IMG/VR virus record: IMGVR_UViG_3300025151_000280
Span: 1 to 25,129 of that record
DNA from: a virus
Length of the DNA stretch: 25,129 bases
Strand: one strand, 5' to 3'
Shown here: one piece after another, positions 5,698 to 23,376 of the stretch
Numbering within the stretch: the stretch's first letter is position 1
How the letters are laid out: every line of letters starts with the position of its first letter
The notes under the pieces: model-generated
The model's input: only the letters and a program-made list of their open reading frames with translations
Told to the model about the DNA's origin: nothing
The model's database searches: none
Program-made: the position numbers and the translations under genes

Positions 5698-6639
5698 TTA
5701 ATTAAAAGGGTTTTGTTTATCAAAGTCTCCAATCATGCTATCCATGATACGGTCTTCAATAGAACCCTCGTTTTGTCTATTTTGAGAAGGCATCACACCC
5801 ATAGAAGGAGGTACTTGCTGAGCTCTTTTAACTTGTTGAAATTCCCTAGAAGGAATCGCAGGTTGAGTTGAACTCGTAAGTCCTTTATCTACAGAATACA
5901 ATTTCCAAAGATTATCAATGTTTATAGAATTAGGGTCAGACATAACTCTAACAAAATCATCAGCTGTTTGTGAATCAACATTATATTGAGACATAACATG
6001 AGTCTTGACATTGTTAACTTGTTCTGCTGTCTTAGCCTCTGCTTCACGACGCTGAATATCTGCTTGACGTTCATTCTTCATCTGTTCGCGTTCGTCTTTT
6101 AAAACCGCCATTTGATATTCAAACTGCATATTCTTATAATCATCCATTTCATCACGCCATTGTTGCTCAGCTTGAACAAACCTGGCGCTTTCAGAAGATG
6201 GATCAGACATTGCATCATCCATGTTAAAATTGTATGGTTTTTGTGGCTTCTCTGGTGGGTCTGGGAACGACTCTTCTACAGCTTCTTCTTGCACAGCTTC
6301 AGGCTGGGGTTGAGGTTGAGTTTGTTGTGCAGCTAAACTATTAAACTGTTGCTGCAACTGTTCTTTCTCATTTCTCAACTTATCAGCTTGAGATTGCCAA
6401 TATTGATATCGTACTTCATCGTTACTTTGGTTAACTTCAACAGATGGTTCTTCTTGGGGTTGTTCGGGATTTGCAATTTCCTCTTCAACACTGTCAAAGG
6501 CTTCTGCTACGGAACCTTCCGCACCACCAAAAATGACGTCATCAACTAAAGAGCCCTCATCTTGCAAATCTACCGAGCGTGGTTCTTCCACAGCTGGTGC
6601 ATCTACTTGAGGGGTATCTAGTACTTGCTCTTCTGTCAT
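5698..6639 (-). CDS. Scaffold-like protein
   Basis: 313 residues, strongly acidic and Gln-rich at the N-terminus (MTEEQVLDTPQVDAPAVEEP) with a long predicted coiled coil from about 75 to 215 (YWQSQADKLRNEKEQLQQQF, later EYQMAVLKDEREQMKNERQA). The C-terminal third is less charged and Pro/Gln-rich, ending in a short helix (IEDRIMDSMIGDF). This acidic, helical, low-complexity layout between portal and capsid genes is the hallmark of phage scaffolding proteins, which bind the inner coat surface during procapsid assembly and then leave. No protease domain is seen, so release would be by exit or by another protease. Confidence 0.8.
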   Translation of the reverse strand: MTEEQVLDTPQVDAPAVEEPRSVDLQDEGSLVDDVIFGGAEGSVAEAFDSVEEEIANPEQPQEEPSVEVNQSNDEVRYQYWQSQADKLRNEKEQLQQQFNSLAAQQTQPQPQPEAVQEEAVEESFPDPPEKPQKPYNFNMDDAMSDPSSESARFVQAEQQWRDEMDDYKNMQFEYQMAVLKDEREQMKNERQADIQRREAEAKTAEQVNNVKTHVMSQYNVDSQTADDFVRVMSDPNSINIDNLWKLYSVDKGLTSSTQPAIPSREFQQVKRAQQVPPSMGVMPSQNRQNEGSIEDRIMDSMIGDFDKQNPFN

Positions 6640-12604: not shown

Positions 12605-13017
12605 GGATTTTAACCAAAAGCTTATCGTTAGAGTTTACAAAAAAATACGCTTATAATTTATATACAATTATTTATATAAATCAATAATCAAGTATTAGGT
12701 GACACTACTCATGGTAAGTTTGTGTATATCAAGACTTGCAAAAACTACAGAATTTTTTCAAAAAAAAATTTTAGATCAGTGCTACTTATCCCATACCCTA
12801 AAACATGAAAAATTTATTTTAGATTGGGAATACGTGATATACAGGTTGCTACACCCCATCGAAATTCACGGGGTGGGTTGCCTCTCCCGTTGAATTTGCT
12901 GTGGTGTTACAGCAAGTTCTGCCCCCTGCTCATCCCTGCAGGATGTACTTGCAGAATGTATATATCTATTCCATAGTTATACATTCTTCCGATAATCTCA
13001 CATTGGAGTGTACCAAT
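12605..13017. promoter_or_regulatory. Divergent intergenic control region
   Basis: This 413-bp gap separates the two arms, so promoters for both must lie here or nearby. The left half (about 12605-12790) is extremely AT-rich and includes an A/T tract at about 12751-12772 (ttttttcaaaaaaaaatttt), which favours bent, easily melted DNA. The right half (12841-12960) is GC-rich and strongly self-complementary. No convincing sigma-70 promoter could be fixed by eye: a TATACA at 12838 has only a poor -35. A replication origin is possible but unproven, as no iterons are visible. A short frame at 12699-12893 crosses the gap but has no ribosome site and is judged spurious. Confidence 0.55.
12852..12954 (+). 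ncRNA. Structured leader with alternative hairpins
   Basis: Hairpin A pairs cacccc (12852-12857) with ggggtg (12870-12875). Hairpin B pairs aaattcacggg (12862-12872) with cccgttgaattt (12886-12897), 11 bp with one bulge. A and B share bases 12870-12872 and cannot both form. Hairpin C is ttgctgt/acagcaa (12896-12902/12909-12915). D (cctgc 12925-12929/gcagg 12938-12942) and E (ctgca 12936-12940/tgcag 12950-12954) also exclude each other. This lies 64-166 nt upstream of the next gene's ATG, so a switching leader or a small RNA is plausible. No known riboswitch class was recognised. Confidence 0.5.
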
Positions 13018-13398
13018 ATGACACTATCTACAGTAGTTGATAAGGCTACCTTCTCAAATACTGCAAGTGGCACAGTCATTACCCATCCCAAGTCTGGGAA
13101 GGCTATTGACTTTGAGGTAAACCGTGATAAAGATAACAGTGTTATCTACACGACTAACCTCAAAGCTGTCACTCAACAAGTAGACCGCACCTTTCCAGCA
13201 GTATTAACTGCTGATAAAGTCGCGTCAATTGCTCAAGCTTCCAAGAAGCTCAAGCAACCGCTACAAGTTGAGGACAACTGTGACTACAGACTGTCAGGTG
13301 AACCAGTCGAGTTCGAAGCTAACGCCGAACTAGACCTACCTGCCAGTATGCAGGCTACGTACAAGCCTATCGTCTCCAGAGACGCTATAAGCTTCTAG
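13018..13398 (+). CDS. Isolated early gene of unknown function (126 aa)
   Basis: The ATG at 13018 follows a ggag site at 13005-13008 and gives 126 residues. A longer frame from GTG 12901 is rejected because it runs through the hairpin leader and has no ribosome site. The protein is soluble with mixed beta character (TASGTVITHPKSGKAIDFEV, NSVIYTTNLKAV), an acidic region (GEPVEFEANAELDLPAS) and a single Cys. I do not recognise it. Its codons are noticeably richer in G and C than those of its neighbours. It is a stand-alone unit with its own structured leader and a perfect terminator, which points to strong, separately controlled expression. A host-takeover or anti-defence role is possible but is guesswork; a small DNA-binding or virion-unrelated housekeeping role is equally open. 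Confidence 0.75.
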   Translation: MTLSTVVDKATFSNTASGTVITHPKSGKAIDFEVNRDKDNSVIYTTNLKAVTQQVDRTFPAVLTADKVASIAQASKKLKQPLQVEDNCDYRLSGEPVEFEANAELDLPASMQATYKPIVSRDAISF

Positions 13399-13405
13399 TA
13401 GCGAC

Positions 13406-13457
13406 AGATAACCTAGCTCGTTGAGCAAGCAGTGGCACTGCTAGGTTATCTTTTTTT
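13406..13457 (+). terminator. Strong intrinsic terminator
   Basis: A perfect 11-bp stem, gataacctagc (13407-13417) with gctaggttatc (13440-13450), one pair longer if the flanking a/t is counted, has a 22-base loop and is followed at once by seven T residues (13451-13457). It starts 8 nt after the stop of the isolated gene and is the clearest rho-independent terminator in the window. Confidence 0.93.
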
Positions 13458-13458
13458 A

Positions 13459-13488
13459 TTGCGTGTAACTATATAGGATGCGTATATT
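13459..13488 (+). promoter_or_regulatory. Possible sigma-70-type promoter
   Basis: TTGCGT (13459-13464), an 18-bp spacer and TATATT (13483-13488) lie directly after the terminator and before a structured RNA region and the next run of plus-strand genes. The hexamers match the consensus at 4 and 5 of 6 positions. The position is right for restarting transcription, but AT-rich DNA yields chance matches, so confidence is modest. Confidence 0.35.
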
Positions 13489-13531
13489 ATGTATGTATAC
13501 GTTAGTACACGTCTGACAATATTTATATAAC

Positions 13532-13652
13532 TAATTAATAGTAGCAACTGCCAGCGGAAGTTAACTTAAGATGCTGATTGCAGGGTAATCACGTGGCTGA
13601 GAATTATGTCTTGCTGTGGCATAAACGGAGTATTACCAGCTACTATTAATTA
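13532..13652 (+). ncRNA. Multi-branched structured RNA candidate
   Basis: A perfect 14-bp closing stem (taattaatagtagc 13532-13545 with gctactattaatta 13639-13652) encloses 93 nt that can form further helices: ctgc/gcag (13548-13551/13579-13582) stacked on cagc/gctg (13552-13555/13573-13576); ggtaat/attacc (13584-13589/13632-13637); and inside that, ttatgtc/ggcataa (about 13604-13624). The result is a junction-like fold of 121 nt. It begins about 40 nt after a possible promoter and ends 39 nt before the next ATG. It is not a tRNA: there is no T-loop signature and the closing stem is too long. It could be a leader, a processing signal or a free RNA. Confidence 0.5.
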
Positions 13653-13690
13653 TGATCATTAACTAATGTTAATAGAATAGGGAGCAAATT

Positions 13691-13846: not shown

Positions 13847-13953
13847 AAAAGGATTACATAGAAATAGCATTACGATGGTTCATCATATTAAATGCTTTAG
13901 CAATCTATCATTTGATTGTTGGAGCATTAGCAATTCACATTAATAACTGTTAA
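13843..13953 (+). CDS. Single-span membrane peptide (36 aa)
   Basis: A 36-codon frame starting at an ATGA overlap. Residues about 8-32 are hydrophobic (ALRWFIILNALAIYHLIVGA and onward), enough for one membrane span, with a short charged head (MKKDYIE) and a HINNC tail. Coupling to the gene before it supports translation. It would sit in the inner membrane. Its role is unknown; small early membrane peptides in phages often block superinfection or alter host membrane functions, but nothing here proves that. Confidence 0.58.
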   Translation: MKKDYIEIALRWFIILNALAIYHLIVGALAIHINNC

Positions 13954-13968
13954 ACAAATAATGTAAGT

Positions 13969-14000
13969 CCTATGGTAGGGAAGGGGTTTCCTACCTTAGG
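13969..14000 (+). repeat. Intergenic hairpin element 1
   Basis: cctatggtagg (13969-13979) pairs with cctaccttagg (13990-14000) with one T-T mismatch. The loop can close further through g-t, a-t and a-t pairs to a GGGG tetraloop (13983-13986). It lies between the membrane peptide and the next gene and is not followed by a T run, so it is more likely a processing or stability element than a terminator. Confidence 0.6.
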
Positions 14001-14026
14001 CGTTTATTAAACTTAGGGAGGTGTTT

Positions 14027-14821: not shown

Positions 14822-15078
14822 GTGATGATGTAGAATGCTGTCAAGAGTGCAGCTACTGGGAAAGCAGAGCTGAAATCAACACAGAAAACGAAATCAAAAT
14901 GAAAGTAAAAAAGATTGAGGGAGATACTATAATAGCAGTACCAAAATTAAACATACAAACTAATAAACCTGCTGGTGGAACACATAAAGCCAGCAGAGGC
15001 TTGGATGTGGAAAGAAAACTTGGTATAATAAAGGCTATCATTAGAAAAAGTCGTGGTTGGCTAAATCTCCCTCGATGA
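14818..15078 (+). CDS. Unknown small protein with N-terminal cysteines (86 aa)
   Basis: 86 residues from an ATG that overlaps the previous stop by four bases. Three cysteines cluster at the N-terminus (MSDDVECCQECSYWESRAEI), which could bind a metal with a partner or form a half zinc site. The middle contains a strand pair (MKVKKIEGDTIIAVPKLNIQ) and the C-terminus is basic (RGLDVERKLGIIKAIIRKSR). No family is recognised. It is the last gene before a 260-bp intergenic region full of inverted repeats. Confidence 0.6.
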   Translation: MSDDVECCQECSYWESRAEINTENEIKMKVKKIEGDTIIAVPKLNIQTNKPAGGTHKASRGLDVERKLGIIKAIIRKSRGWLNLPR

Positions 15079-15085
15079 TTTAACA

Positions 15086-15156
15086 TTAGGGTTAAACACA
15101 ACTAATATTAACAAGGTAGTATTGGTTATAAACACATAATAACAGTTTAGCCCTAA
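15086..15156 (+). repeat. Intergenic inverted-repeat element 2
   Basis: ttagggttaaac (15086-15097) pairs with gtttagccctaa (15145-15156) over 12 bp with one G-T wobble. Inside, actaatat pairs with gtattggt over 8 bp with wobbles. It begins 7 nt after a stop codon and lies end to end with the next element. There is no T run and no tRNA signature. Confidence 0.6.
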
Positions 15157-15259
15157 AAATTAGGCTACATATCATAAAACTCATAGATTAACTCCTATTT
15201 GTTTATACGAAGAGTATGTTAATTAACACTTCACATCTCATTATGTAGCCTATAATTTT
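15156..15259 (+). repeat. Intergenic inverted-repeat element 3
   Basis: aaaattaggctacata (15156-15171) pairs with tatgtagcctataatttt (15242-15259), 16 bp with a 2-nt bulge. The enclosed 70 nt include attaac/gttaat. It shares its left boundary with the right end of element 2 and is followed 6 nt later by element 4. The wobble and bulge placement keeps the stem stable as RNA. Confidence 0.6.
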
Positions 15260-15265
15260 CATAAA

Positions 15266-15318
15266 GGGGCAGTCATTCTAAATGCTGTATAGTGAAATTC
15301 ACAGCGTCTGATTGCCCC
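15266..15318 (+). repeat. Intergenic inverted-repeat element 4
   Basis: ggggcagtca (15266-15275) pairs with tgattgcccc (15309-15318) over 10 bp with one G-T wobble. An inner helix pairs atgctgt (15282-15288) with acagcgt (15301-15307). It ends 8 nt before the ribosome site of the following gene, so folding could control access to it. This and elements 2 and 3 fill nearly the whole 260-bp gap. Confidence 0.62.
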
Positions 15319-15338
15319 CTCTCTCCAAGGAGTATATT

Positions 15339-15608
15339 ATGATGGATATTTCAATGAATACTTTAGTTGTTACAACTAAGTATTATAAGGGGATTGTAGA
15401 TGGAGTAAAATTTATTTATGATCCAGAAAACGCACTAAGTTCAGAAAAATGGACATTTGGCTATGATGATAATGACACAAATGACCCAGAATATGAGAAA
15501 CATCAAAGATTATGGGAAAATAAAGCCAAAAGACGCATTATGGATTTAGTAGCAGCAACGACCAAATGGTCAGAACTAGAAAAGGAGGAGTCGGATGACT
15601 CAAATTGA
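15339..15608 (+). CDS. Hypothetical acidic protein (89 aa)
   Basis: The start at ATG 15339 follows AAGGAG at the right distance; the next codon is also ATG. A longer frame from TTG 15312 is rejected because it runs through element 4. The protein opens MMDISMNTLVVTTKYYKGIV and has a strand-rich first half (GVKFIYDPENALSSEKWTFG), an acidic loop (DDNDTNDPEYEKHQR) and a helical end. No family is recognised. It overlaps the next gene by 14 nt. Confidence 0.62.
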   Translation: MMDISMNTLVVTTKYYKGIVDGVKFIYDPENALSSEKWTFGYDDNDTNDPEYEKHQRLWENKAKRRIMDLVAATTKWSELEKEESDDSN

Positions 15609-15813: not shown

Positions 15814-16050
15814 ATGCCAGGAACTAGTGCACCAACTGCACCGACAGTAACTGTCATGTCCTTTCACAATGGTGGAAGGCTTAGGGACATGCAAGGGAAT
15901 ACCCCATCTGAGTTAGCTCAGACTATGGATATCTCTCTTGATGGTGTCGCTATATACGTAGATGATGCTGAAGCCAAGGCTTCTACACCGTTACGAGCTG
16001 GACAAGTTGTTTCTTTCCAAAAGAGCAAAGTGTCATCAGGTAGCAAGTAA
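15814..16050 (+). CDS. Ubiquitin-like beta-grasp protein (Ubl)
   Basis: 78 residues with an acggaggt site ahead of the ATG. After a flexible Ala/Pro/Thr head, VTVMSFHNGGRLRDM looks like the first beta hairpin, NTPSELAQTMDI the helix, and DGVAIYVDDAEA plus STPLRAGQVVSFQKSKVSSG the last strands. The closing segment follows the MoaD/ThiS/ubiquitin pattern 'T.L..G..V.f......G'. The C-terminus is SSGSK, so G76 is followed by two residues; conjugation through Gly would first need removal of Ser-Lys, a job for the JAB peptidase encoded nearby. Lysine acceptors K70, K72 and K78 are present. It opens the cassette with the same order as plasmid PRTRC modules. The fold is inferred from pattern and context rather than strong similarity; an unrelated small protein remains possible. 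Confidence 0.62.
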   Translation: MPGTSAPTAPTVTVMSFHNGGRLRDMQGNTPSELAQTMDISLDGVAIYVDDAEAKASTPLRAGQVVSFQKSKVSSGSK

Positions 16051-16067
16051 CAAGCACGTCTGCTAAG

Positions 16068-16126
16068 AGTATGTACTCGCAAGGTAATGTATCAACCAAT
16101 ACCAATAAGGGCCTTGCAGTCATACT
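16068..16126 (+). repeat. Intergenic inverted-repeat element 5 (inside the Ubl cassette)
   Basis: agtatg-t-act-c-gcaagg (16068-16084) pairs with ccttgc-agt-catact (16112-16126): 15 bp with two single-base bulges around a 27-base loop. It lies between the Ubl stop and the E2-like start. It could set different expression levels for a modifier needed in bulk and an enzyme needed in small amounts; that is inference. No T run follows. Confidence 0.62.
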
Positions 16127-16168
16127 TTAATTAATCAATCTTAAATCTAATAATAAAAGGAGATACAT

Positions 16169-17938
16169 ATGCTGTATTTTAAAAGTATATTGCCTCCAAG
16201 GATAGCTGACGTTGTATCATGTAACAATATTGCAATAGATACTAAAAGCGTTTCTTATGAGAATCGTATTAAAACGTTTTTCTTAAGAGTCTTTGGAAAA
16301 GATAAAGGCTTTATTGAAGATGAGGCATACTGGTCACTACTATGGAAAATGTTAAGTGACCCTAACAATCGTTATGGCATAGTTGCTATTGATGGATATT
16401 CTGATGATCCATTGGGCAAAGAAGACTATGCTTTAATATTAAATATGAAAGAACCTAGATTACGTGCTAGAAACATACATAATCTGGGTACTATATATAT
16501 GAAGTTTGATACTGATGGTAAAACATCGTATTACAATTCAACTACAGATTACTTTGATTTTTTAAATCAAGTACCTGCAAGACATCCTCATATATCAAAT
16601 GGAGAACCTTGTCTAGGTAATTATTCTACTAGACTAAGTAAATCTCAATATGAAGGTAATCCGCTTATGTGGTTAAAAGACATAAATCAATTCTTAAACA
16701 CCTGGAATGCTAATTCTGCGTATTATAACCTTAATACCACTCCAGAGAAAATGATATTTTATCCACGAAATATTAAACTTAAACCAAGAGAAATGTCTAG
16801 TTATAAGTATTTTGGCATTCTTAATAGTGTACAAAGCGATCATCGAACTTTTGCACTAGAGGCTTTAAGAGATGAGCTTATATGGAAAGTAAAATCAACA
16901 GATAGAAGGTCAGAGTTTGCAGTAGCTGGATTTGTAGCATCATTGTGTGGTGATATGTATGATAAATTTGCAGGGAACAGTACTGATGTTTATAAAAATA
17001 GTAAACATGCAGAATATATTGAAGACTTTAGAATCAATACGGGTAAAGTTTCTAGATTAGATAGTATCGGATGGGATATAATTAATACAGGAATAAACGT
17101 ACAAAATGAACAGCCTAGAATGATAGTAAGGTCGGATAATGGTTATATAAAGTTTGTTCAACTTAGCAGTGCTTATCTTAATTATCTTACTAGCACTTAT
17201 TTTGCTGAAGCTCGTTCTGCAATGAAATCAATGGGTTATACAATAGATTATATTATTAAAAGCCCAATTGCTGCAACAAACATACAAAAATACATAATAG
17301 AGATAGCACCTATTATATTAGAGAAATATGTAAAAGAGTATGTACCGATTATTATTGAGCAAAATAAAGTTCTAGCGGATTTAACTGTTAAAAATAAAAC
17401 AAAACGCAGATTAACATGTCATAATCCAGAGATTTATGATGCTGATTTAAATCCAGATACAGTTCATGCAATAGAAACCATATTAAAAGATTATTTTGAT
17501 CATTACAATAATATCAAAAGAAATCTTAAAAGAACATTCAAAAGTATTCTAGATGAGAAATTTTCATCTCTTGACGTTGATGCAATATACGATAAAAAGA
17601 CTGAAGAAGTTTTTGAGGTTAATGCATATCCAAAAGCATATGGAAGACCAGGTTCTTTTGATAATGTAGGTTATTACATGCAACATCAAGGTATTTATGA
17701 TGACGATAGATATAAAAAGCATCTTAAAACATTAGGTATAGAACAATATCCTAAAACGTTTAAAGAACTTATTGTCACTTATGAAAATCTTAAACATAAA
17801 GTACATGTAGAAATGTTAACTGCAAAGCAAGAAACACTAAACAAACAAATAATAAAAGAAGGAGGTATGTTGCATTATGGAAGTAAAGCTAATAATACCG
17901 AAGAAGATAGCACACAAGTACCGCTATCTTTTGACTAG
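16169..17938 (+). CDS. Large protein with E2-like ubiquitin-conjugating domain
   Basis: 589 residues with an aaaggag site. Residues about 50-180 carry the E2-like signature: strands ending in LGTIYMKFDT, a PARHPHISNGEPCLGNY segment and helices MWLKDINQFLNTW. In E2 enzymes 'HPnI..~G.iCL' places the catalytic cysteine, so C148 is the predicted thioester site and H139-P140-H141 the conserved turn. Prokaryotic E2-like families, including PRTRC protein B, share this 'HPH...CLG' form. The remaining 400 residues are unusual: a helical, Lys/Tyr/Ile-rich region with segments such as TYFAEARSAMKSMGYTIDYI and YYMQHQGIYDDDRYKKHLKT and no recognised domain. They may select substrates, in place of an E3. 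The gene overlaps the JAB gene by 62 nt. It would pass activated Ubl from the E1 to targets. Confidence 0.75.
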   Translation: MLYFKSILPPRIADVVSCNNIAIDTKSVSYENRIKTFFLRVFGKDKGFIEDEAYWSLLWKMLSDPNNRYGIVAIDGYSDDPLGKEDYALILNMKEPRLRARNIHNLGTIYMKFDTDGKTSYYNSTTDYFDFLNQVPARHPHISNGEPCLGNYSTRLSKSQYEGNPLMWLKDINQFLNTWNANSAYYNLNTTPEKMIFYPRNIKLKPREMSSYKYFGILNSVQSDHRTFALEALRDELIWKVKSTDRRSEFAVAGFVASLCGDMYDKFAGNSTDVYKNSKHAEYIEDFRINTGKVSRLDSIGWDIINTGINVQNEQPRMIVRSDNGYIKFVQLSSAYLNYLTSTYFAEARSAMKSMGYTIDYIIKSPIAATNIQKYIIEIAPIILEKYVKEYVPIIIEQNKVLADLTVKNKTKRRLTCHNPEIYDADLNPDTVHAIETILKDYFDHYNNIKRNLKRTFKSILDEKFSSLDVDAIYDKKTEEVFEVNAYPKAYGRPGSFDNVGYYMQHQGIYDDDRYKKHLKTLGIEQYPKTFKELIVTYENLKHKVHVEMLTAKQETLNKQIIKEGGMLHYGSKANNTEEDSTQVPLSFD

Positions 17939-18704
17939 ATTCAAAAACACAGAATGGTCAGGCCCAGCATTTTATCGTATTAAAACTAATGATAATGGGT
18001 TTCCAGAAGAGTTTAAAATAGTACATTTCCATCCATTAGACTTAGGTCATGGAACGGCTACTGATTTTGACGCTGGAGATGTGGCATCCATTCTTAAAGA
18101 AACTTATCAAAAGTATCCATCTCTAAAGCATTGCTATATGGGACTGATACACAGCCATCATACAATGGGTGCATTTCTGTCAAGTACAGATAAAGACACT
18201 ATATTAGAAATGGCTCCAACAGAAGGTTTCTACGCTAGTTTAGTCGTAGCAAGTCAAGGTAAAGCAACTGAAGCCTTTGGTTTTAGTTATGTAGATCAAT
18301 ATGGACAAGCACATGCTATGATAATTGACGAAGATAAAATTGATATACAACTACCAGAGTATAAAGTGGAAGATGACTGGATAGAGCAAGCAGATACAAT
18401 TGAAAAGAATAAACCAGTACCACTTAATAATGTTGGAAAACAAACTCAAATATGGCGTCATAATCAAAACACTCAAACAGCAACCGAAATACGTTTAGCT
18501 AAATATTCTAAATCTAAACAAAATAAGATAAGCAAAGTCTTAGATAAGTATGAAGATGGCAAGCTTAATGAAGTTGATGCAGAAGCTAAGCTAGAACGTT
18601 TAGGTTGTAATGAAGTAGACATAATATTCTTTATGGATGATGCAAGTAAAACTCAAGCGTATAACTATGGATATAGCTACGGAGGTTACTATGGAGGATA
18701 CTAG
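17877..18704 (+). CDS. JAB/JAMM-domain metallopeptidase
   Basis: 275 residues. The JAMM site is complete: E26 (TEWSGP) as general base and H92-S93-H94, seven residues, S102 and D105 (IHSHHTMGAFLSSTD), exactly HxH-x7-S-xx-D. Such enzymes cut isopeptide or peptide bonds after Gly of ubiquitin-like proteins and need Zn. Predicted jobs here are to remove Ser-Lys from the Ubl precursor and to release Ubl from targets. After the domain (about 1-155) come an acidic linker, a helical segment (NKISKVLDKYEDGKLNEVDA) resembling short SHOCT-type helices, and an aromatic tail (YNYGYSYGGYYGGY). The ATG lies 11 nt after ggagg, inside the E2-like gene. The start of the E1 gene overlaps its end by 14 nt. Confidence 0.9.
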   Translation: MEVKLIIPKKIAHKYRYLLTRFKNTEWSGPAFYRIKTNDNGFPEEFKIVHFHPLDLGHGTATDFDAGDVASILKETYQKYPSLKHCYMGLIHSHHTMGAFLSSTDKDTILEMAPTEGFYASLVVASQGKATEAFGFSYVDQYGQAHAMIIDEDKIDIQLPEYKVEDDWIEQADTIEKNKPVPLNNVGKQTQIWRHNQNTQTATEIRLAKYSKSKQNKISKVLDKYEDGKLNEVDAEAKLERLGCNEVDIIFFMDDASKTQAYNYGYSYGGYYGGY

Positions 18705-19356
18705 GTTCTTACGCAATAAAGACCTTATCCCTCAGGGTAAGCTTAACAAGATAGCTATTATAGGACTAGGAGGTATCGGCTCACAGCTGGTACCTCTATT
18801 GTCTATTATGGGTTTTAAAAATATTGTAGGTTATGACTACGATACACTTGAAGAACATAACTTGAGTACAACATTGTATCCTCAAACAGCTCTTGGGGTA
18901 AGCAAAGCTGAAATAGCAGGAAATACATCTAAACTATATGCTGTAAATCCTGATGGTATGAAGTTTCACAACGAACCATATACTGAAAAAAGCCCTGCTT
19001 TCCCAAAAATGATTGTTTGTACAGACAATATGGAATCAAGACTGGTAGCTTACAATAAATGGCTAGAACAACCTAATAGGCAACTATTTTTAGATTTGCG
19101 TATGGGTGCTATGGCTATGGAAATTGTTACAACAACTAAAGAACATGATAACTACTTAGATACCTGGGCTCCAACACACGAAATAGGTGAAGAGCCTTGT
19201 ACAATGAAGCATACTATCTTTACAGCTTCAATTGTAGGTGGATTAGGAGTTGATCAGGTCTTTAATGTTGTTGCAAAAAGAGCTTATTATCAGTATATTT
19301 GGTTAGGCTTAATGCCTCTACAAATACGAACAGACAACTTAGTAACTAAAGGATAA
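18691..19356 (+). CDS. E1/ThiF-family adenylating enzyme
   Basis: 221 residues from ATG 18691, chosen because acggaggt lies just upstream; a longer frame from 18637 lies within the JAB gene. The Rossmann start IAIIGLGGIGSQLV gives the ATP loop (G25-x-G27-G28-x-G30). Next come the acidic pair D49/D51 (YDYDTLEEHNL), VCTDNMESR with D112 and R117, and a candidate catalytic cysteine C160 in EEPCTMKHTIFTAS, close to the 'PCT' environment of E1 enzymes. The usual Arg after 'NL' is replaced (NLSTTLYP). It would adenylate the C-terminal Gly of the Ubl, form a thioester and hand it to the E2-like protein. The protein is short, with no separate Ub-fold domain, as in ThiF/MoeB and PRTRC ThiF. It ends 2 nt before the Sak4-like gene. 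Confidence 0.9.
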   Translation: MEDTRFLRNKDLIPQGKLNKIAIIGLGGIGSQLVPLLSIMGFKNIVGYDYDTLEEHNLSTTLYPQTALGVSKAEIAGNTSKLYAVNPDGMKFHNEPYTEKSPAFPKMIVCTDNMESRLVAYNKWLEQPNRQLFLDLRMGAMAMEIVTTTKEHDNYLDTWAPTHEIGEEPCTMKHTIFTASIVGGLGVDQVFNVVAKRAYYQYIWLGLMPLQIRTDNLVTKG

Positions 19357-23247: not shown

Positions 23248-23282
23248 TAAAACTATTTGTATGTTACAAAATCTTAACAGTA

Positions 23283-23376
23283 AATTATATAGGGCTCAGT
23301 TGTCCTGTGTTGACATCCTTTTGGATAAACATAAGCAGGCAGTGAGTAAAAACACCAACGCTGAGCCCTTATAATT
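23283..23376 (+). repeat. Intergenic inverted-repeat element 6
   Basis: aattata-t-agggctcag (23283-23299) pairs with ctgagccct-tataatt (23361-23376): 16 bp with one bulged T. The 61-base interior can form cctg/cagg (23304-23307/23336-23339) and an atcc-tttt-ggat hairpin (23315-23326). The stem ends at the base before the HNH start codon. The 9-base arms agggctcag/ctgagccct recur at 25095-25126. Confidence 0.68.

Follow-up and report, generated by a model that had tools for sequence, protein, structure and literature searches.

A chain of predicted RNA domains in and after a small gene of an uncultured marine tailed phage

Genomic context of the locus

The window analyzed here, that is, the whole stretch of DNA examined, corresponds to an IMG/VR virus record of 25,129 bases and represents an uncultured marine tailed phage. 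Its left part carries minus-strand genes, including terminase- and portal-like ones, and its right part carries plus-strand genes, among them a primase-helicase. A noncoding segment (12808-12905) separates these two blocks and matches 47 loci, several of them from one contig; the better matches show 82-92% identity over 60-96 nt, a conservation far above that of the gap studied here, and the segment is possibly a promoter region or an origin. Further to the right (15814-19356), consecutive genes code for a small ThiS-like protein, an uncharacterized protein of 589 aa, a weakly JAB-like protein and a ThiF/E1-like protein. This row could be a phage-borne ubiquitin-like system, with the Pfam ThiS match (E 0.075) lying below the cut-off. 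The 589-aa protein retrieved no match as a query against viral contigs, and the ThiS-like protein retrieved none from genome contigs and thus offers no clue to the host.

The region of interest is a gap of 260 nt between two small plus-strand ORFs, together with the end of the first of these (Table 1). The product of the upstream ORF has no match in Pfam or PHROG; its N-terminal CCxxCxYWE-like motif is common to the relatives, and in a comparison with the relative L016 over 86 codons, 8 codons have synonymous changes and 23 have nonsynonymous ones. The gene downstream of the RNA element varies among relatives while the element keeps its place, which fits a positional rather than a gene-specific role.

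Table 1. Features of the locus (window coordinates)
Feature	Position	Strand	Description
Small ORF, 86 aa	14818-15078	+	3' half overlaps the upstream RNA domain (domain 0)
Domain 0 ('PL')	14915-15075	+	Long-range closing helix 14915-14925/15065-15075, 11 bp
Element 1	15086-15156	+	12-bp closing helix, nested 11-bp hairpin
Element 2	15161-15252	+	11-bp closing helix, interior weakly structured
Element 3 (type B)	15266-15318	+	10-bp closing helix, internal loop, 7-bp upper helix
Pyrimidine stretch CTCTCTCC, then AAGGAG Shine-Dalgarno	15319-15332	+	Weak pairing possible
Downstream gene, 88 aa	15342-15608	+	No known family in Pfam/PHROG

Folding of the intergenic gap

A first-pass annotation of the sequence had described three end-to-end elements in the gap, with stems of 12, 16 and 10 bp. 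Disjoint stems are indeed found there, and the elements are separated by spacers of 4 and 13 nt. The first and last lengths hold, with the closing stem of element 1 pairing 15086-15097 with 15145-15156 (one G-U) around a nested stem (15100-15110/15117-15127, two G-U), and that of element 3 pairing 15266-15275 with 15309-15318 (one G-U) around an inner helix (15282-15288/15301-15307); in element 2 the uninterrupted helix (15161-15171/15242-15252) is 11 bp, and 16 bp are reached only by admitting bulges. As had also been stated, the last element stands just ahead of a ribosome site, its stem ending 8 nt 5' of the AAGGAG at 15327-15332 (start codon 15339 or 15342), and the elements are not simple terminators: no plus-strand site with a stem followed by a U-run occurs within 15079-15338. 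A search for promoters at the locus gave none that was clear, only weak consensus matches.

Folded as plus-strand RNA, the gap has a minimum free energy of -67 kcal/mol against -41.3 +/- 3.9 for shuffled controls (z -6.6; reached by 0/200 shuffles), and as minus-strand RNA it gives a z of -2.7 (2/200 shuffles). Three non-overlapping stems, each of 10 bp or longer, were obtained in 3/2000 dinucleotide shuffles and in 7/486 other 260-nt segments of the window, so the stem count by itself is weak and the claim is carried by the energy and the homologues. The strand comparison bears on a DNA-level explanation, according to which the palindromes have a role in the DNA itself, for instance at an origin, at an operator or at a hot spot of recombination, and RNA folding is a by-product. 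The negative antisense z and the apparent exchange of modules between phages fit this explanation; however, the stems contain G-U pairs and the sense-strand excess is much the stronger, and we hold it to be quite improbable. In a scan of 150-nt tiles the gap region was not the strongest; the tile at 13126 reached z -7.7 on the plus and -7.8 on the minus strand, and the strongest folding of the window, with z about -8 on both strands, lies at 13051-13275, inside the ORF 12966-13398.

Other gaps of the operon

A survey of the codirectional plus-strand gaps of at least 70 nt in the window gave sense z values of -3.7 (13847-14020), -4.3 (15079-15311), -2.9 (16051-16168), -3.8 (23248-23376) and -2.3 (13399-13690). 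The antisense strand also folds well at 13847-14020 and 23248-23376, and part of the signal is therefore not strand-specific. A supposed signal-free gap at 17939-18636 was discarded as an artefact of crude ORF calling, the region being spanned by the 275-aa JAB-like gene. A stretch of phage T7 handled in the same way gave a mean z of -2.1 for the sense and -0.4 for the antisense strand, with its intercistronic hairpins visible.

Several individual structures were noted in these gaps. A terminator-like hairpin with a T-run lies at 13397-13460, followed at 13538-13655 by a large hairpin whose closing stem (ATTAATAGTAGC/GCTACTATTAAT) has about 12-14 bp. Ahead of an HNH endonuclease gene (23282-23375) there is a conserved junction-like element with the closing helix GGGCTCAG/CTGAGCCC, a variable middle, a constant CAGTGAGTAAAAACACC and few compensatory changes. 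Relatives differ in the hairpins of the gap after the ThiS-like gene. Upstream of that gene, the intergenic regions of two of them, L157 (809 nt, -269 kcal/mol) and L159 (601 nt, -174 kcal/mol), are rich in strong stems.

An upstream domain within the preceding gene

Folding of 14850-15360 joins the two strands of the domain 0 (PL) helix, a long-range pairing that spans the 3' half of the ORF before the gap. Within this domain there is an inner hairpin (14969-14975/14990-14996), and GGTTGG (15055-15060) immediately precedes the 3' strand of the closing helix. Over 13 distinct sequences 88% of the PL helix cells are paired and 8/11 pairs are changed on both sides, with 22 both-side-change cells against 7.2 +/- 2.2 in shuffled controls (0/500 reach this), a count made on an alignment (A4) with strands placed by hand, the MAFFT alignment (A3) having had rows one base out of register. 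The inner hairpin covaries as well, in 6/7 pairs (14 cells versus 4.6 shuffled; 0/500). In two relatives (L031 and L132) the ORF is gone and the interior is reduced to 46 nt, yet the PL helix and the type A element described below are kept. Sequence comparison among the relatives thus gives evidence of covariation that shows selection for RNA pairing acting on domain 0. The unit delimited by the first-pass annotation is too small, as it missed both this domain and the operon-wide pattern.

Terminal elements in relatives

Relatives were collected from IMG/VR in two scans, a protein scan that took the 10395-11201 gene as query (52 loci) and one that took an alignment of the ThiS-like protein (52 more, partly from the same contigs); a pattern scan with the type A core returned 43 stretches, some of which are chance matches in coding sequence. 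The common layout is domain 0, then optional hairpins, then a terminal element, with extra hairpins between domain 0 and type A in L016, L041, L061 and L068. Comparison of the loci shows that the sets of domains vary between relatives.

The terminal element is in most relatives a three-way junction (type A). Its P2 varies, CAGAGTTTTAGAAACT is near-invariant, and the closing helix, which changes freely, encloses the nearly invariant junction and P3 hairpin. In this closing helix 98.2% of cells are paired, all pairs (8/8) are changed on both sides, and there are 32 both-side-change cells against 10.0 +/- 2.2 shuffled; these were counted on an alignment (A2) in which strands trimmed by hand were attached to the core and the junction and P2 were omitted, and as hand placement is biased towards the structure and the sequences are related, such shuffle counts are not probabilities. 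RNAalifold on a further alignment (A7) recovered the P3 hairpin only, and that with no covariation, because long and short forms differ in the register of the closing helix. The compensatory pattern among relatives shows that type A, which is positionally equivalent to the terminal element of the window, is under selection for RNA pairing.

The window, L063 and L125 have a type B element in place of type A; across the three, 45 of 57 columns are invariant, and the closing helix contains a pair changed from G-C to A-U. Two pattern scans of viral contigs found no further carriers. Element 1 has a probable homologue in L063, within 6015-6124 on the minus strand, with a score of 36 against 2000 shuffles (mean 19.6, sd 3.3, max 37) and a maximum of 25 in other L063 windows. 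Element 2 is supported by folding alone, with no homologue among the collected loci and no match of its closing-helix DNA pattern in viral contigs. The proposal of the first-pass annotation that selection acts on RNA pairing is accordingly borne out by the sense bias and by the covariation seen in domain 0 and in type A of the relatives; for the stems of the gap itself the support is uneven, with two homologues for element 3, one probable homologue for element 1 and none for element 2.

The joint presence of domain 0 and type A or B in all examined relatives, where optional domains may separate the two, could also point to a stable noncoding RNA that is cut from the transcript and acts in trans, these two parts being constant and the other hairpins optional insertions. 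The persistence of domain 0 and type A despite loss of the ORF is in keeping with such an RNA, as is the single exact type A core per record in 6/11 records searched. Most relatives, however, have the 5' strand of the closing helix within a translated ORF, the domains vary in number and there is no clear promoter. We consider a trans-acting RNA the less probable reading, at perhaps one chance in four.

The Shine-Dalgarno region

TCC stands directly 5' of the Shine-Dalgarno sequence in 6/10 elements as compared to 3.6% of 1358 other sites, a contrast whose P value is too small given that the sequences are related, and for which the ten leaders were typed by hand, with L016 (a placeholder) and L056 (shortened) scored as lacking TCC. 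A predicted Shine-Dalgarno hairpin appears to overlap the end of the closing helix in L041 and L054. Hence the terminal element might be a riboswitch-like leader that senses a ligand or protein through the type A junction or the type B loop, its closing helix competing with an SD/anti-SD hairpin. The near-invariant junction and P3 hairpin within a freely changing closing helix, the pyrimidines opposite the Shine-Dalgarno and the overlap in those two relatives are what such a leader might display. Against it, the downstream genes of the relatives are unrelated, the Shine-Dalgarno hairpins are weak in the window, L063, L056 and L016 (-1.9 to -2.5 kcal/mol), and Rfam holds no matching riboswitch or ribozyme; a sensing leader appears unlikely to us, though somewhat less so than the DNA-level explanation.

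Comparison with known RNAs

At the Rfam gathering threshold the window has no match, only weak ones up to E 5, and 25 relatives have none apart from one tRNA in L034. Three stretches searched at relaxed E-values likewise gave no credible match to ribozymes, riboswitches, GOLLD, ROOL or introns; ARAGORN found no tRNA or tmRNA in the window and only a tRNA-Met, in L034, among the relatives. Hammerhead and HDV-like readings made from the letters were dropped for want of the core order. The gap and a type A stretch gave no matches as nucleotide queries against named phages. The motifs are thus absent from Rfam; the literature search was limited, and they may have been described earlier outside it.

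The mRNA of T7 is processed by RNase III (PMC4858673). Its intercistronic RNase III sites (R1.1, R1.3, R3.8 and R4.7) are hairpins located between phage genes of the same direction, in many cases directly before the next ribosome site, and they show a folding excess on the sense strand; hairpins are placed in the same way here. In contrast to the T7 sites, up to four successive domains occur, some multibranched and one overlapping coding sequence, and types A and B have invariant interiors. GOLLD and ROOL are comparable as structured phage RNAs with covariation support (PMC12286853), and GOLLD has one conserved and one less conserved part (PMC12286853). However, GOLLD frequently exceeds 800 nt and ROOL contains several pseudoknots, whereas the domains described here are located partly within a small ORF and partly behind it, and match nothing in Rfam. 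Translational riboswitches and other RNA leaders share the conserved junction beside a possibly sequestered Shine-Dalgarno, but here there is neither a conserved downstream gene nor an Rfam match.

Functional implications

The position, the sense bias and the T7 parallel favor the chain being a set of cis-acting modules in a polycistronic phage mRNA, with a role in processing or stability and possibly in translation, a proposal by analogy to which we give about an even chance. The gap and the end of the preceding gene would then encode four RNA domains in the plus-strand transcript, each closed by its own helix of 10-12 bp, and the chain would act in cis as an intercistronic module, as the T7 RNase III sites do. 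Its helices would be candidate cleavage sites and exonuclease barriers that determine the ends of the mRNA and its half-life. The last domain, beside the pyrimidine stretch and the Shine-Dalgarno, might affect translation of the next gene. Cis-acting modules are also consistent with the PL helix and type A outlasting the ORF in two relatives; moreover, other plus-strand gaps of the operon fold well too, and TCC is enriched beside the Shine-Dalgarno. On the other side, a generic RNase III site needs no invariant type A or B interior, some gaps fold well in antisense and element 2 is without a homologue. In addition, the conservation of the type A and B interiors points to recognition of a specific sequence, and, together with the pyrimidines opposite the Shine-Dalgarno, it suggests a further, more specific component.

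More tentatively, domain 0 and type A or B could constitute an undescribed modular class of phage RNA that overlaps the end of a coding gene and has a sequence-specific core binding a protein or ligand; we regard this as possible rather than probable. If these proposals are correct, a marine phage group possesses RNA families not represented in Rfam, one of which overlaps a protein gene, and several gaps of one operon are filled by RNA modules. They would provide structures, partly backed by covariation, for testing mRNA processing and translation in uncultured phages, and would imply that RNA elements missed by gene callers can hide in the gaps of phage genomes.
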